Positions 6,713 to 60,067 of a stretch of 64,000 bases of DNA are shown here, in pieces. How positions within the stretch are numbered: the first letter of the stretch is position 1; every line of letters starts with the position of its first letter. Source of the stretch: Paenibacillus odorifer (GTDB lineage Bacteria > Bacillota > Bacilli > Paenibacillales > Paenibacillaceae). A program made the translations under genes and the position numbers. Below the pieces are notes generated by a model. That model ran no database searches. It was not told the DNA's origin and worked only from the letters and a program-made list of their open reading frames with translations. The DNA lies in NCBI RefSeq assembly GCF_000758725.1, contig NZ_CP009428.1:5766001-5830000 (forward strand), read 5' to 3'.

Positions 6713-7813
6713 TTGCTGGCCCTATTTAAAAATATTAAAAACCGGAGAACCCTGTTATGCCTGTCCGCGGCCGCTATCCTTTGGGGTGGTTTAAACCTTC
6801 CCGTTGCAGCAGCTGTAGCGCGGCCTACTATCCAACCGGTGATGAGCAGCGGGGATCCCGCTAGTGCTAGCAAAGAAGCGCAATGGTCTGGCCGTAGACA
6901 GATTTATGAGCAAATGAGCGCAGCTACTGGTATCCCTTGGTTTAGGTTCGCAGCCATTGATCAATATGAACGCACGCTCGCCAAAAAGGGAGCCTCAGGG
7001 CAGCCTGTCTCCACGCGCCTTACAGCCATAAAAATCCCGGCACCGGTATGGGCTGGTCCACTTAATCCGGATCAAGGGGATACTTCCCCGAAATCCATTA
7101 GCTTCTTTGATGGTTTTGGCAGTGATGGCTCAGGAGACGGCATTGCTGATCCAGAGAATGATGCGGACGTTCTGTATAGTATGGCTAGACACTTATTGAA
7201 GTATGGACAATCCGCTAGTGATTTCAGTATCGGGGTCTGGGAGTATTATCACAATGGCCGCGCCTCGCAGCGCATCACCCAGTTCGCGAAGTTATATGAA
7301 CATTTTGGACGGCTGGACCTATCCGGCAATGCCTTCCCGCTTCCCCTAAGTAACCTTTATTCTTATCGTAGCACTTGGGGTACTGGAAGAAGCTGGGGCG
7401 GAGCACGTATCCATGAAGGAACAGATTTATTTGCACCTCAAGGAGTGCCAGTACGAAGCACCTGCTTTGGCTTAGTAGAGACAAAAGGCTGGAACCGATA
7501 CGGCGGCTGGAGAATTGGCATTCGCGATATCGAGAACCGTTACCATTATTACGCTCATCTATCTGGATATAACAAAACCATTTCTCGCGGAGATATAGTC
7601 ACCCCCGGTGAGATTATTGGCTGGGTAGGCAGCTCGGGTTACGGCAATCCCGGAACACAAGGAAAATTTCCTCCACATCTACATTTTGGCATTTACCGCG
7701 ATCGCGGAATTACCGAATGGGCTTTTGATCCGTTTCCGTTGCTGAAACAATGGGAGAAACAGGAATATAGAGACTTAAAGAACAAAAGAAGCAAAAAAAG
7801 TGCTGTAAATTAG
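6713..7813 (+). CDS. lytH: M23 metallopeptidase, LytH-like (sporulation L-Ala-D-Glu endopeptidase)
   Basis: Predicted exported peptidoglycan endopeptidase of 366 residues. A signal/anchor segment covers residues 12-35. The C-terminal M23 domain (about 228-350) contains all zinc and catalytic signatures: HEGTDLFAP, HYYAHL and PPHLHFG. TTG 6713 is chosen because AAAAGGAGG at 6696-6704 lies 8 bases before it; the GTG at 6668 has no binding site. In B. subtilis the lipA neighbour yunA/lytH trims cortex peptide side chains in spores and is followed by yunB. Here yunB lies 20 kb away on the other strand. The gene name rests on domain and synteny. Confidence 0.8.
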   Translation: MLALFKNIKNRRTLLCLSAAAILWGGLNLPVAAAVARPTIQPVMSSGDPASASKEAQWSGRRQIYEQMSAATGIPWFRFAAIDQYERTLAKKGASGQPVSTRLTAIKIPAPVWAGPLNPDQGDTSPKSISFFDGFGSDGSGDGIADPENDADVLYSMARHLLKYGQSASDFSIGVWEYYHNGRASQRITQFAKLYEHFGRLDLSGNAFPLPLSNLYSYRSTWGTGRSWGGARIHEGTDLFAPQGVPVRSTCFGLVETKGWNRYGGWRIGIRDIENRYHYYAHLSGYNKTISRGDIVTPGEIIGWVGSSGYGNPGTQGKFPPHLHFGIYRDRGITEWAFDPFPLLKQWEKQEYRDLKNKRSKKSAVN

Positions 7814-54286: not shown

Positions 54287-54434
54287 GTATTGCTTCATTA
54301 ATAACGACTTTCAGGAATAACGGCTTTCAGGGCAATTATTGTAACAACTTCCGCTTCTCAGAATATGCTGATTGGGCAGGTTCCCATTTTTTAAAGGAAT
54401 GAACAGGAGAAGTTCAAGGAGGAGATATAGAAAT

Positions 54435-56249
54435 ATGCCTGATTACAGACCATTTAAAGGCGATGCTATCCTAAACAAGCATGGAAGGATCAGCAGTCCT
54501 ATTAGAAAGAGGGAGTGTAACGCACTATTAAAAATAGTCACTGATCTCTCTGCAGTGGTACCCCCCGTACTTACGAATCCCACAACACTTCATATTGTCA
54601 ATCTCCAAAGAGTGTTAAGAGAGCTATTGGAATTCTTGCATACTTCTAAGTTATGCAGCCCTTTTAGAACTGAGCTACTTTCTGTAGTAGAGATAACCAT
54701 TGTATCGACCGAAGTCAGTCCCTTCTCAGTCGTAAGCGTTGGCACTAATCTTCAACTGCTATTAGCTGAGTTATTATCTTTTATTCTCGCCACGAAGATT
54801 GACCCTAATTGCAAAGATCAGCTGATTATTCAGATCAGACATATTCAGGCTTCTATTACACAAGCAATTGGATTACCTATTAAAGGTGTGACTGGACCTC
54901 AAGGGCCACAGGGACCACAGGGACCTCAGGGGCCGCAAGGATCTCAGGGGGTTCCGGGAGCAACGGGAACTACAGGGGCAGGGCTGCAAGGAATTGTTGC
55001 TTTTAATCCTGCATTAAGCCCTACTTATCCTGCCGGTCAAGTAGTAACCTTCAATGGTAGTACCTATATAGCTACTGTTGCGGGACCAACGGGAACACCT
55101 GGAAGTTCACCAGATTATTTATTAATTGCTGGGGGCTCCACAGGCCCCCAAGGACCTCAAGGCCCTCAAGGAACACCGGGACTTCAAGGACCTCAGGGGC
55201 CGCAAGGGGTAGGGCTGCAAGGGATTGTAATCTTTAATCCTGCACAAAGTCCTACTTATCCAGCAGGTCAAGTAGTAACCTTCAATGGCAGCACCTATAT
55301 TGCTACCGTTTCTGGACCTACTGGAATACCCGGGAGTTCACCAGATTACTTGTTAATCGCTGGTGGCGCGATGGGACCTCAAGGACCACAGGGTGTGCAG
55401 GGGATTCAAGGGCCAACAGGTGCGCAAGGACCAGCAGGTCCAGGCGTAGGAGCAACTGGAGCGACTGGCTCGACTGGCGCTGCAGGCTTGGCAGGCCCTG
55501 CTGGTGCAACGGGCGCGACTGGCGACCCCGGCGCGGTCGGCGTTGCCGGAGCTACGGGTGCAACGGGTGCGACTGGTGATCCCGGTGTGGTCGGCGTTGC
55601 CGGAGCTACGGGTGCAACGGGTGCGACTGGTGATCCCGGTGCGGTCGGCGTTGCCGGAGCTACGGGTGCAACGGGTGATCCCGGCGCGGTTGGAGCTACT
55701 GGCATTACCGGAGTCACTGGTGCAACCGGTAACGGTGCAATTATTCCGCTGGCATCCGGAGGACCTATTATTATGACCACGGTTTTAGGTGGTTTGGTTG
55801 GAACAACAAGCCTTGTAGGCTTCGGAAGTTCAGCCACAGGCATTTCTCTTGTTGGCGGTAATATTGATTTAACAGGTACTCTCCTTGGACCGCTTATCAA
55901 CTTTGCATTCTCGACTCCTCGTGCAGGGGTGATAACATCCCTTGCTGCTTATTTCAGTAATACCATAGCTTTATCGCTGCTTGGTACTACAATAAATGTA
56001 ACAGCACAGTTGTACCAATCGGCCACACCAAATAACACATTTACTGCTATTCCAGGGGCATTAGTAGCGCTCCCACCTATCACAGGTACTATTAATCTAG
56101 GAACTTTTGTCAATGGAATTACAAATGATATCAATTTTGCTGTAACACCACAGACACGTCTGCTTATGGTATTCTCAGCCACTGCTACAGGCCTCTCCCT
56201 TGTAAATACAGTCACTGGTTATGCAAGTGCTGGCTTTACGATTGTATAA
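54435..56249 (+). CDS. Collagen-like exosporium glycoprotein with BclB C-terminal domain
   Basis: 604 residues. ATG 54435 follows AAGGAGGAGA; the upstream ATG at 54372 has no site. Residues 1-150 form a helical, non-collagen head. Collagen-like GPQ/GAT triplets then occur in three blocks interrupted by two nearly identical 50-residue modules ([32 protein letters not shown]...[11 protein letters not shown]) that look like small carbohydrate-binding beta domains. The last 165 residues match the BclB C-terminal domain ([32 protein letters not shown]...[29 protein letters not shown]). Such proteins form hair-like filaments on spores and their GAT triplets are O-glycosylated. No exosporium leader of the BclA type was identified. 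Confidence 0.9.
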
Positions 56250-56520: not shown

Positions 56521-56634
56521 ATAGTCTGTCAATGTCACTCCCCGCTCTTCTTCTCTCCTACTCATGTCCGGAGGCTGAATCCCTATTACCGAAACCTTCC
56601 TTTCCTTTGGTCTCGATCAGGAGCTGCAGATACG

Positions 56635-57074
56635 CTGCTTATTACACCTCCTTCTATACACTTACAATCACTACTTAGAGTCTACTGTTTCTTTCCCACG
56701 TCGGATGAGCTGCTTACTATGCCTCCCTCTATACACTTACCTTAACTACTTAGGTCTACCGTACTCTCCCACGTCGGATGAGCTGCTTACTACGCCTCCT
56801 TCTATACACTTACCTTCACTACTTAGGGTCTACCGTTCTTTCCCACGTCGGGTGAGCCGCTTACTATGCCTTCCTCTATACAATTACCTTAACTACTTAG
56901 GTCTACCGTACTCTCCCACGTCGGGTGAGCTGCTTACTACGCCCCTTCTATACTCTTACCTTCACTACTTAGAGACTACTGTTCTTTCCCACGTCGGGTG
57001 AACCGCTTACTACGCCCCTTCTATACTCTTACCTTCACTACTTAGAGTCTACTGTTCTTTCCCACGTCGGGTGA
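56635..57074. repeat. Tandem array, six units of 73-74 bp
   Basis: Units begin at 56635, 56709, 56782, 56856, 56929 and 57002, each starting G/A-C-C/T-GCTTA and ending with CCCACGTCGG(G/A)TGA. Two subtypes alternate (TTCACTACTTAGGGTC...CGTTCTTTC and TTAACTACTTAGGTC...CGTACTCTC), so part of the array grew by a 147-bp dimer. It has no terminator and no plausible coding sense. Confidence 0.9.
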
Positions 57075-57170
57075 GCTATATTTGATGCTGTGGTAGGGTA
57101 GGGACATTAAGTGGCGTTCTAGGTACAATATGCTTGTAAATGTTCAACATCCACCGGTTAGTAAAATACC

Positions 57171-57217: not shown

Positions 57218-57234
57218 GTTAGATATCCATTATA

Positions 57235-57468
57235 TTAGGGAAATCCTCCCTAATATTCATCGATAATCGCTTTAAAATAAGGTTTTTAGGGAAATCCTCC
57301 CTAAAAATTCATGCAAATACCCATTTATGGCTAAAAACATCCTATTATTAGGGAGGATTTCCCTAATCCACGTTCTAGGAGCCATAATTCCCTTCACTTT
57401 AGGGAGAATTTCCCTAATTCACGTGCTAGAAGCCATAATCCCCTTCACTTTAGGGAGAATTTCCTTAA
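57235..57468. repeat. Array of five phased 19-bp palindromes
   Basis: TTAGGGAAATCCTCCCTAA at 57235-57253 and 57286-57304, then its inverted form TTAGGGAGGATTTCCCTAA at 57348-57366 and variants TTAGGGAGAATTTCCCTAA at 57399-57417 and TTAGGGAGAATTTCCTTAA at 57450-57468. Start distances are 51, 62, 51, 51. Between copies 3-4 and 4-5 the 32-base spacers are also alike (CACGTNCTAGNAGCCATAAT). Confidence 0.9.
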
Positions 57469-57480
57469 AGTTCTACCCAG

Positions 57481-57533
57481 AAAGACGTCCCATAGCCAGC
57501 TCATTCCCCCTGGCTATGGGACGTCTTTTTCCA
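57481..57533. terminator. Strong bidirectional terminator after the hydrolase gene
   Basis: A perfect 19-bp stem, AAAGACGTCCCATAGCCAG with CTGGCTATGGGACGTCTTT, encloses a 10-base loop (CTCATTCCCC) and ends in TTTTT on the plus strand. Confidence 0.9.
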
Positions 57534-57568: not shown

Positions 57569-58378
57569 TCAGCTAATCTGCTGACTGCCCTGCTGCTTCT
57601 CCAAGAAACGCTGAAGAATCGCATTGAATTGCTCCGGCTGGCACAGATTACTTGGATCTAATGCGTTCGGAATAATCGCCAACTGCGCATGTGGCAGCTG
57701 GGACACCATTTCCTTCATACAATTCACTCCAAATTCATTAAAGTCCCCTACAATACATAAAGCAGGACGTTTAAAAGCCTTTAAGCATCTGGTGTAATCA
57801 ACATGGCTCGTAGCCAGCCTTTGCCGATAAAGCTCCCGGGGACGTTTGTCCAGCAGCCCTCTTCTAATCTCATTGTAGGCCAGACTCCAGCGCTCTCGGT
57901 ACATCATCCGAATCGAAGGCAACACCAGCTCGCTTGGGAGATAATACATTAGCAAACTGCAATATGCTGCCATAGTTTGTATTTTCCCTACAATTGTTGA
58001 TCCGTGAGTCCTACAGAAGCTGTCTGCGACCACAATTGCTTTTACACGCTCAGGATATTGTTTGGCAATATGCTGAACGACTAAGCCACCATAGGCGATT
58101 CCTACAAAAACTGCTTCACGGATACCTAGGTCATTCAACAGCATAATCAAATCCAGACATTGCGTCTCAATAATCTCATGTGGGGCCTCCAGCAGTTTAC
58201 CAGACTTACCATTCCCCCGTAAATCGCACAAAATCACTTTATATTTATCGGAAAAATACTCCAGCTGTGGTTTGAACATACTGTGTGTTAATCCATGTCC
58301 ATGGATAAACACAACCGGAGTGCCAGTTCCATTGATTTCATAATAGAGCGAAGTTCCGTTCAGTTTAGCGATAGGCAA
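57569..58378 (-). CDS. Alpha/beta-hydrolase-fold protein lacking catalytic residues
   Basis: 269 residues of clear alpha/beta-hydrolase fold (PVVFIHGHGLTHSMFKPQLEYFSDKYKVILCDLRGNGKS; VFVGIAYGGLVVQHIAKQYPERV; RPALCIVGDFNEFGVNC). The nucleophile elbow, normally GxSxGG, reads GIAYGG: the serine is Ala95 (codon GCC). The acid loop reads GDFNEFG and the histidine block, usually GHxxxxEQP, reads ALDPSNLCQPEQFN, so the His is Asp241. All three triad positions are altered, so it is probably a binding or regulatory protein rather than an enzyme. TTG 58378 is chosen because AAAGAGGTG lies 6 bases upstream; ATG 58396 has no site. It lies directly behind a c-di-AMP riboswitch and terminator. Confidence 0.82.
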   Translation of the reverse strand: MPIAKLNGTSLYYEINGTGTPVVFIHGHGLTHSMFKPQLEYFSDKYKVILCDLRGNGKSGKLLEAPHEIIETQCLDLIMLLNDLGIREAVFVGIAYGGLVVQHIAKQYPERVKAIVVADSFCRTHGSTIVGKIQTMAAYCSLLMYYLPSELVLPSIRMMYRERWSLAYNEIRRGLLDKRPRELYRQRLATSHVDYTRCLKAFKRPALCIVGDFNEFGVNCMKEMVSQLPHAQLAIIPNALDPSNLCQPEQFNAILQRFLEKQQGSQQIS

Positions 58379-58433
58379 AGGTAACACCTCTTTCATAATA
58401 AATTCTACGACTATATCTGCTTAAAAACGCAGC

Positions 58434-58460
58434 AAAAAACCACAGAGGGATTCTCTGTGG
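58434..58460 (-). terminator. Riboswitch expression-platform terminator
   Basis: On the minus strand CCACAGAG - AATCC - CTCTGTGG is followed by TTTTTTGC. It stands between the riboswitch aptamer and the hydrolase start, the usual place of a transcription-off switch. Confidence 0.85.
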
Positions 58461-58483
58461 CTATTCATCACTAAACACGCCAT

Positions 58484-58663
58484 TCATCCTCTCTCCATAC
58501 GCTTACGAGGTTAGCTGTCGGATTCGGGCAGTGAGAGTTGCCCTACCTGCAGGGATGCATGTTATGCACCCGGAACAGGATTCACCCCATAACCAGTGCC
58601 GACTCTCACATCGGCTGCCAGTTGTTGGTTCCCCCGCTTTCCAGAAACGGAAATTAAGCGGAT
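58484..58663 (-). ncRNA. c-di-AMP riboswitch (ydaO/yuaA type)
   Basis: On the minus strand the aptamer shows all landmark blocks of the ydaO motif in order: CCGCTTAATTTCCG, AAAGCGGGGGAACCA, TGGGGTGAATCC, AGGTAGGGCAACTCTC and CCGAATCCGACAGCTAACC, then TCGTAAGCGT closing the structure. It binds c-di-AMP; family members usually switch transcription off at high ligand and control cell-wall hydrolases or potassium transport. Here the only downstream gene is the alpha/beta-hydrolase-fold protein, through the terminator at 58434-58460. Confidence 0.95.
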
Positions 58664-58928
58664 TGCTTATGTAATTGTAAATTTAAGATAATTGTCAGTT
58701 CTGAGATGAATCATACTCTTGTAAGGTTTGCTTGTAAAGGAGGGCTCTGGTCAAAATAATGTTGAAAGCAATGCTTTTCATTTCATATTGAGCATACTCT
58801 TCATTTTCTCTTTCTTTTGCTCTTGTTTACTCGTTTTATTTAAGAAAATGGCTCTGAACCAAGCCAAACGGAGGTTAAAACACCAGTACTTTCTATATAA
58901 AGGCCATCCTTTTCACTGGAGATATGAA

Positions 58929-59248: not shown

Positions 59249-60043
59249 TTAAACCATCTGATAGATGGGTTGTTCAGCAATGAACCGGCTAGGAAGCATG
59301 GGATATTTGTCTGCTAAGATTTCAGCTAAATATTTCATTCCCGGCGCTTCACTCTCCGCATGACCTAACATGATGAGCGCTTTAGATCTGCCTTGGTGCC
59401 CTGCATCCCGCACATATTCCGGAGTCTCCCACTCTGGTCCCTCTCCAGCAATAATTAAATCAAGATTGTGATCATTAAAATGCGGAATAGCCATCGTCCC
59501 GCCTCCTCTGTAACCTACTAATATCCCTACGCGTTTGCAGGACAGAGACAGGTCACCAGCAGCGCGTACATAAGAGATCCCTAGCTTACTTTTAATATAC
59601 TGAGCAGCTTCCAGTACAGTCATAGCAGGAATAGTGAGAATCGTAGCAGCTGCTTGCTGCTCTTCCACGTATGCGGACCAATCTAGTTCTCCCAGCAAAC
59701 CCACCATAATTCCATCCGGCTTTTGCCGATGCCAATAATCATGATAACGAAAAATAGCAATTTGGGAATGTTCGATCAGACTTTTTTTCGCATGATAAAC
59801 CGGATCACCTTCTAACCACTCGCTCGCCGCATGATGGCTATAAAATACACCTTCATGCGTGATCAGCAAATTGGCTCCTAACGCTATTGCTTGCTCCACA
59901 ACATTTTGTGTGGCAGAGAAGGCCGTAATAATCCCTGTGACTTCAGTTTCCGGTTCCCCTGGGTTCAGAATATCGACAGTGCCTTCTACCTGTTCCACAG
60001 TTCCCATTAAATCTTCCATAATCGCTCTAATCGTGAGGCTCAC
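59249..60043 (-). CDS. Nif3-like dinuclear metal-centre protein
   Basis: 264 residues (about 260 is normal for the short class). Conserved metal-binding blocks: LLITHEGVFY, VGILVGYRGGG and MLGHAESE. Family members are hexameric di-metal proteins of unsettled function (GTP cyclohydrolase I-like or hydrolase activity has been proposed). The start is uncertain: GTG 60043 lies 10 bases after GAGGGA, ATG 60049 and 60052 lie closer. It follows the GH67 gene by 24 bases or fewer and would be transcribed with the xylan operon. Confidence 0.82.
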   Translation of the reverse strand: MSLTIRAIMEDLMGTVEQVEGTVDILNPGEPETEVTGIITAFSATQNVVEQAIALGANLLITHEGVFYSHHAASEWLEGDPVYHAKKSLIEHSQIAIFRYHDYWHRQKPDGIMVGLLGELDWSAYVEEQQAAATILTIPAMTVLEAAQYIKSKLGISYVRAAGDLSLSCKRVGILVGYRGGGTMAIPHFNDHNLDLIIAGEGPEWETPEYVRDAGHQGRSKALIMLGHAESEAPGMKYLAEILADKYPMLPSRFIAEQPIYQMV

Positions 60044-60067
60044 TATCATCATCCCTCGATTCGAAAT

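Follow-up and report, generated by a model that had tools for sequence, protein, structure and literature searches.

Why does a riboswitch for c-di-AMP stand directly in front of a single gene whose product has the shape of a hydrolase and, as far as alignment can tell, none of its catalytic residues? The question is raised by a locus on the minus strand of the window, by which we mean the whole 64,000-nt stretch of Paenibacillus odorifer DNA that was analysed. c-di-AMP is an essential messenger, and its main task in these bacteria is the control of potassium. Based on the comparisons described below, the pseudo-hydrolase probably contributes to potassium control as a non-enzymatic component not described before; more specifically, we give somewhat better than an even chance to a non-catalytic cytosolic partner of cation transport that would be induced by K+ limitation and switched off by c-di-AMP.

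Organization of the locus

The features of the locus, in window coordinates and in order of transcription, are as follows.

58710..58738, minus strand, promoter-like site TTTACA-17-TATGAT upstream of the aptamer (10/12 matches, a consensus match only)
58484..58670, minus strand, c-di-AMP aptamer RF00379 (100.7 bits, E 9.8e-23, gathering cut-off 38, model positions 1-134, i.e. full length)
58438..58462, minus strand, intrinsic terminator serving as expression platform (10 pairs, then a T run)
57569..58396, minus strand, pseudo-alpha/beta-hydrolase ORF as listed (275 aa)
58385..58393, minus strand, Shine-Dalgarno-like AAAGAGGTG, which the listed ORF translates as K-E-V (codons 2-4)
58094..58096, minus strand, codon 101 (GCC), Ala in the elbow G-I-A-Y-G-G where the nucleophile would be
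57656..57658, minus strand, codon 247 (GAT), Asp where the catalytic His is canonically found

An earlier note on this DNA had proposed a complete aptamer and its terminator in line with one gene. The covariance-model check confirmed this, since the full-length match (100.7 bits against 38) is followed by the terminator at 58462-58438 and then, next on the same strand, by the pseudo-hydrolase gene; only the span given there, 57569-58663, fell 7 nt short of the aptamer 5' end at 58670. The 87-nt leader 3' of the aptamer had a fold z of -3.2, beating 200/200 shuffles, and the TTTACA-17-TATGAT site was conserved by eye in all seven aligned sequences, the window's own among them. A promoter-like site was also looked for on the minus strand between the terminator and the gene and none was listed, in agreement with the proposal that the switch controls the gene.

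Use of the first ATG as start codon was dropped in favour of codon 7, given the start-codon column of the homologous loci: in 71 of the 73 loci of the family set (G078 and G297 were left out), the codon-7 column contained ATG, TTG or GTG in every case, and a Shine-Dalgarno-like word preceded it in 68/71. The true start is thus probably the TTG at 58378, judged from this column, and the first six codons of the listed ORF, with K-E-V encoded by AAAGAGGTG, look like a translated ribosome-binding site.

Several other elements were noticed around the gene. A DUF34/NIF3 gene (59249-60052, minus strand) lies before the riboswitch and is upstream in 8/8 genomes of the window clade. Just 3' of the pseudo-hydrolase gene, a perfect 19-nt inverted repeat with a 10-nt loop (57481-57528) is a possible terminator, and directly behind the gene a 19-nt near-palindrome (TTAGGGA..TCCCTAA) occurs five times at a spacing of 51 or 62 nt (57234-57468). 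About six tandem copies of a 73-nt unit (87% matches; 56634-57077) separate the gene from an ORF for a collagen-like glycine-repeat protein (54372-56249, plus strand); two other loci of the window clade (L091 and L092) also have similar ORFs downstream of the hydrolase, on the other strand.

Homologues and their conservation

The family set comprised 73 homologous loci in 72 genomes, including that of G078 (L018/L133), in which the orthologue is split by a frameshift, yet the riboswitch is intact (102.1 bits). Relatives with E at most 1e-30 were present in 41/100 genomes of the genus, the two named ones, at 92 and 97% identity, being Paenibacillus. Searches with profile A1 found relatives in 35/295 genomes of the family, 30/296 of the order and 7/299 of the class, these samples overlapping and including genus genomes, with at most eight candidates per genome scored.

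Among seven close orthologues, dN/dS was 0.034-0.059 in 21/21 pairs, indicating that the protein is kept by purifying selection despite the missing triad, and 52 columns were invariant over 26 diverse members. These values, together with the repeated linkage described below, make it extremely improbable that a decaying gene has been kept by chance beside a riboswitch, an explanation that the single frameshift-split orthologue of G078 would fit.

Predicted fold and loss of the catalytic triad

Membership in the alpha/beta-hydrolase fold, which the earlier note had predicted together with an Ala in GIAYGG, was found both in the Pfam match of the window protein to Abhydrolase_1 (PF00561; 60.1 bits, cut-off 25.8) and in its AlphaFold2 model (pLDDT 81, pTM 0.85), and the Ala is residue 101. 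The best structural matches of the model were esterases, the predicted fold superposing on 4uhd with a VIA Z of 29.4 and an rmsd of 2.7 over 259 residues. The best NCBIfam match was pcaD (90.9 bits), and no NCBIfam equivalog (PcaD, RutD, MenH, BioH and others) exceeded its curated cut-off among the best 25 of 31 matches.

Alignment to solved esterases placed Ala101 at the nucleophile, Asn220 in the acid column and Asp247 in the His column; by this alignment, all three triad residues are gone from the window protein. Position 250 is Asn. Of the marks of an active serine hydrolase, namely a Ser in G-x-S-x-G, a His after the last strand and an acid in the canonical column, the window protein has none. 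Across the family, the nucleophile column held Ser in 54, Ala in 12, Asp in 5 and Gly in 1 of 72 members, with at least eight changes on a tree that was quick, tested by SH-aLRT only and long-branched, the rows of G078, G213, G297 and G063 (fragments or truncated frames) having been dropped. The canonical His column contained His in a single member of 71 (G220, which itself has Asp101), the canonical acid column contained Asp or Glu in 0/72, and the combination of Ser101 with His247, sought in 71 members, was found in none.

The earlier note had attributed a catalytically dead product to the Ala. Loss of catalysis remains likely, and Ala as the defining loss was rejected, because it is lineage-specific: when the orthologs were checked, Ala was conserved in only 12/72 members, with Ser in 54, whereas the His is missing in 70/71 and the acid in 72/72. 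On the aligned residues, Ala101 is thus only a late step in the loss of the triad, and the product most likely no longer does serine-hydrolase chemistry.

Other residues are kept, namely Asp125 in 72/72, Cys252 in 71/71 and His250 in 34/71 members, and Glu221, beside the acid column, is present in 48/72 and may, by its position, be a shifted catalytic acid. Many proteins with the alpha/beta-hydrolase fold are not hydrolases. With Ser101 in 54/72, these residues would suit a working enzyme with a non-canonical active site, making or breaking a metabolite needed in K+ limitation. We consider such an enzyme unlikely, since the nucleophile position varies among Ser, Ala, Asp and Gly, the His and acid columns are not kept, and the window protein itself combines Ala101, Asp247 and Asn250.

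Riboswitches in front of the family members

The pseudo-hydrolase had been regarded as an unusual target; it is no isolated case, the association being a repeated one, with RF00379 standing directly in front of the gene at 39/73 loci (35/42 in the genus, 1/18 in other genera of the family, 3/9 in the next family and 0/4 at class level). Distances from aptamer to start were measured for 32 of these 39 and revealed three layouts: 1) in the window clade (seven loci), the distance from the aptamer end to the start is 105-106 nt and a T run is present; 2) in 15 loci, the distance is 5-8 nt and there is no T run; and 3) in 10 loci, the distance is 117-187 nt and T runs are present. The second layout places the ribosome-binding site at the aptamer 3' end, so that control there is probably translational. 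Tandem aptamers were present at 12 loci, and the direct-aptamer label changed at least eight times on the tree. The differing layouts and scattered tree positions suggest several acquisitions or several losses of the aptamer.

Matches to RF00379 near the gene in L079, L081, L084 and L098 were on the opposite strand and were not counted as controlling it; nor was that in L083, which is on the opposite strand ahead of another gene. In three genomes, RF00379 lies about 70 nt past the 3' end of a gene for a ClC-TrkA_C chloride channel and on the strand opposite to it (L079 3937-4076, minus; L084 1485-1623, minus; L081 6720-6860, plus), and it is possible that these are antisense c-di-AMP switches. 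Two further RNA matches were noticed. Downstream of the pseudo-hydrolase gene of L180, on the opposite strand, is a match to RF02449 (ncr1015 sRNA; 7557-7675, minus strand, 69.6 bits, cut-off 60) with the same sequence as in L041; and in L104 a fluoride riboswitch (RF01734; 12416-12475, minus strand, 62.9 bits) is at the start of a chloride-channel-like gene, which sits upstream of a family member without a c-di-AMP riboswitch.

A sister switch at the kdp operon

The genome of the window contains nine copies of RF00379. Measured over the longer sequence, the window aptamer shares 85% identity with that of the kdp operon leader (G000 597810-597999) and at most 66% with the seven others, and the likeness to the kdp leader extends through the terminator (247 columns, 81% identical). 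Behind this sister aptamer come a 174-aa ORF, kdpA, kdpB, kdpC and a 777-aa KdpD-KdpD/Usp protein; a hydrolase was sought among the genes of this operon and none was found. The operon is at about 598-606 kb and the pseudo-hydrolase gene at 5824 kb. The short KdpD protein is a tandem duplicate of about 780 aa with two PF02702 domains and Usp and no kinase domain, as judged by Pfam for the two copies tested:

L113 9371-11704, plus strand, KdpD/Usp tandem duplicate
L093 5786-8125, minus strand, KdpD/Usp tandem duplicate

The small ORF between the aptamer and kdpA of this genome (L113 4145-4669, plus strand) has a homologue without Pfam match in another genus (L097 13562-13975, minus strand), 53% identical over 132 aa and likewise located ahead of kdpA; it is perhaps another undescribed kdp gene. 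It was also noticed that another RF00379 (G000 597226-597390, minus strand; L003) points away from the kdp switch, ahead of two ORFs of 184 and 173 aa without Pfam match.

Other RF00379 targets in this genome are TrkH, radical-SAM, AA_permease_2, G5/3D and two NlpC/P60 proteins, so that three of nine targets (two NlpC/P60, one G5/3D) are of wall type. By analogy, the pseudo-hydrolase might have a cell-wall or general osmotic role unrelated to cation transport; this is very unlikely, as no wall gene was seen among the annotated recurrent neighbour clusters, which are a subset, while transport genes recur there, and no signal peptide is apparent by eye at the N terminus.

Transport genes beside the family members

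A role as a partner of cation transport is suggested by the neighbourhoods. With transport labels given by blastp matches above 60 bits to Pfam-named representatives, and operons inferred from strand and spacing, a K+/Na+ transport operon adjoined or enclosed the gene at 41/73 loci: 21 kdp, 12 Mrp antiporter, 3 MnhE alone, 2 TrkA_C with Na_H_Exchanger, 2 TrkH and 1 AA_permease_2. Pfam itself gave the names TrkA_C, Na_H_Exchanger, AA_permease_2 and TrkH; these neighbours presumably correspond to KhtT/KhtU, KimA and Ktr. The gene follows the Mrp operons, MnhE and TrkA_C with Na_H_Exchanger, and precedes TrkH or AA_permease_2, a family also found behind RF00379 in the window's genome; besides the two TrkH loci, three more with the gene before TrkH were counted under Mrp. 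Two weaker matches, kinase-like in G042 (99 bits) and chloride-channel-like in G197 (80 bits), were left out of the transport count. The earlier note had suggested a binding or regulatory role in osmotic or wall homeostasis; the osmotic part, now narrowed to K+ and other cations, agrees with these 41/73 transport neighbours, and the wall part finds no backing, no link to the wall having been found.

Transport neighbours (41 loci) and direct aptamers (39 loci) coincided at 12 loci, and one or the other was present at 68/73; after clustering at 80% identity, 33/38 clusters had an aptamer or a transport context. As controls, 20 other Abhydrolase_1 loci, taken from the best of the matches listed in nine genomes of genus and order, were scanned. 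An aptamer was found in 0/20, and two kdp loci in the same search gave matches. The scanning model R1 had been built from 13 aptamers including the kdp copy of this genome, so that the match in L113 is no independent test and that in L114 is. One control locus of 20 had a transport-type neighbour, a weak 77-bit kinase-like match. The difference between family and controls gave a Fisher p of 2.8e-14, a value that is too small because the relatives are not independent. Neither a direct aptamer nor a counted transport neighbour was present at 5/73 loci (G062, G197, G526, G568 and G655); four of these five are drawn as one clade with long branches and are also without the triad, so that triad loss may predate the K+ link.

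The kdp context was confined to loci outside the genus (21/31, against 0/42 inside), and in 21/21 of them a KdpD-like gene adjoined the pseudo-hydrolase gene. The latter lies between kdpC and the KdpD/Usp gene in 14 loci, behind the KdpD/Usp gene in 5 (G329, G314, G399, G474 and G733) and before a full-length KdpD kinase gene in 2 (G178 and G208); in 19/21, the neighbour best matches the KdpD/Usp representative and not the full-length kinase. A four-base stop/start overlap joined the gene and the KdpD-like gene in 5 of 7 junctions inspected. RF00379 was found ahead of the gene-holding kdp operon in 6/20 stretches scanned; of the 14 others, 8 stop short of the kdpA start. An apparent hydrolase-KdpD fusion in G290 was rejected as proof of contact, because the single frame depends on a G-run length difference and the KdpD-like frame is itself interrupted at a later point.

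These positions favour KdpD/Usp as partner. In the available part of PMC11018627, the N-terminal domain of KdpD is described as a serine kinase whose phosphorylation of KdpB is inhibitory, and c-di-AMP as a stimulator of the short KdpD/Usp form. A Kdp-specific adaptor could thus bind the short KdpD/Usp protein and hold back this phosphorylation, keeping the pump active at low K+; the KdpD-like neighbour in every kdp locus, the overlapping junctions and the sister riboswitch at the kdp operon are all in its favour. Nevertheless, KdpD/Usp was not matched in the Mrp, TrkH, TrkA_C/antiporter and AA_permease_2 stretches, and G081, a one-contig genome, has the riboswitch and the gene without a kdpA match. 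Within the genus, co-occurrence with kdpA was not beyond chance (39/41 carriers of the gene against 52/59 non-carriers, p = 0.30), i.e. 52 genomes without the gene have kdpA. We therefore regard such an adaptor as possible, if rather doubtful.

Proposed role of the pseudo-hydrolase

Our preferred reading remains the non-catalytic partner of cation transport, for which the following sequence of events is proposed. c-di-AMP, as messenger of high K+, would bind the aptamer, and the terminator would then stop transcription, the direction being that given in papers on this riboswitch class. When K+ and c-di-AMP drop, the pseudo-hydrolase gene would be read along with the kdp operon, which has the sister switch; in other genera, the protein would be made from the kdp operon itself, mostly from between kdpC and the KdpD/Usp gene. 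The product would be a binding partner, either a regulator or a ligand-sensing adaptor, of cation transport under K+ limitation, a role read from its neighbourhood only. It may bind the KdpD/Usp kinase, a subunit of a transporter or a small ligand.

In favour of a role broader than Kdp are the loci at Mrp, TrkH and antiporter genes, and G081, which has the gene without a kdpA match. Some of the partner transport systems are exporters by their known role, and partners that span importers and exporters point to no single mechanism. In its widest form, the proposal is of a new regulator class, in which a pseudo-hydrolase serves unrelated Kdp, Mrp, TrkH-type, KimA-like and antiporter systems, either as a ligand sensor or as a subunit without catalytic function, and c-di-AMP control over it has been gained repeatedly, once via a shared copy of the kdp riboswitch and elsewhere via translational or tandem switches; we hold the chances of this form to be evenly balanced.

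If the proposal is true, a conserved, riboswitch-controlled, enzyme-shaped protein would be a missing part of the c-di-AMP/K+ network. The proposal also offers a function that can be tested for a group probably labelled hydrolase by automatic annotation, and the kdp link makes a test of that function direct.

Comparison with known systems

The literature searched yielded no description of this family of proteins in connection with the control of c-di-AMP responses or of K+, although a mention in the target tables of Nelson 2013 or Block 2010 is possible. In fold, the window protein resembles PcaD/4uhc-type esterases and lactonases (4uhd Z 29.4 for the predicted model; pcaD 90.9 bits), and it differs from them in being without the Ser, Asp and His of the triad and in remaining below the curated cut-offs among the best 25 of 31 matches. 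The same fold is used in signalling by RsbQ and by the strigolactone and karrikin receptors D14 and KAI2, and chains of D14 and KAI2-like proteins were among the fold matches. RsbQ, D14 and KAI2 keep an intact triad.

The closest regulatory parallel is the c-di-AMP switch of Bacillus thuringiensis, which, in the accessible portion of PMC6488665, opens kdpFABC when c-di-AMP falls under K+ limitation. Both cases involve a c-di-AMP riboswitch of a kdp operon with a terminator and a K+ limitation response, whereas here a second copy of the switch fronts a solitary gene whose counterparts in other genera are part of the kdp operon. Since c-di-AMP switches of this class are considered off-switches in the consulted sections of PMC9960051, the pseudo-hydrolase gene would, by analogy with the B. 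thuringiensis switch, be made with Kdp when K+ is scarce. The short KdpD/Usp protein of Deinococcus geothermalis, as described in the part of PMC11018627 available, has its likeness in the KdpD/Usp-type neighbour of 19/21 kdp loci; unlike there, the KdpD domain here is duplicated and an extra pseudo-hydrolase gene lies beside it.

As to the riboswitch itself, the full-length match far above the gathering score and the terminator platform, like that of the kdp leader in the same genome, place the window element in the ydaO/yuaA class (RF00379). The tandem aptamers of 12 relatives resemble the doublets of PMC9481103, of which 77 tandem c-di-AMP riboswitch doublets are counted in the part seen, and the relatives with the aptamer 5-8 nt from the start are probably controlled in translation, as is reported for C. 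glutamicum nlpC in the corresponding section of PMC9960051. In the excerpt of PMC5670726, one RF00379 in a Paenibacillus is placed ahead of a cell-wall hydrolase, and the present target differs in being a triad-less alpha/beta hydrolase. The riboswitch class, its use at kdp and its tandem copies are thus already known, and it is the kind of target that seems new.
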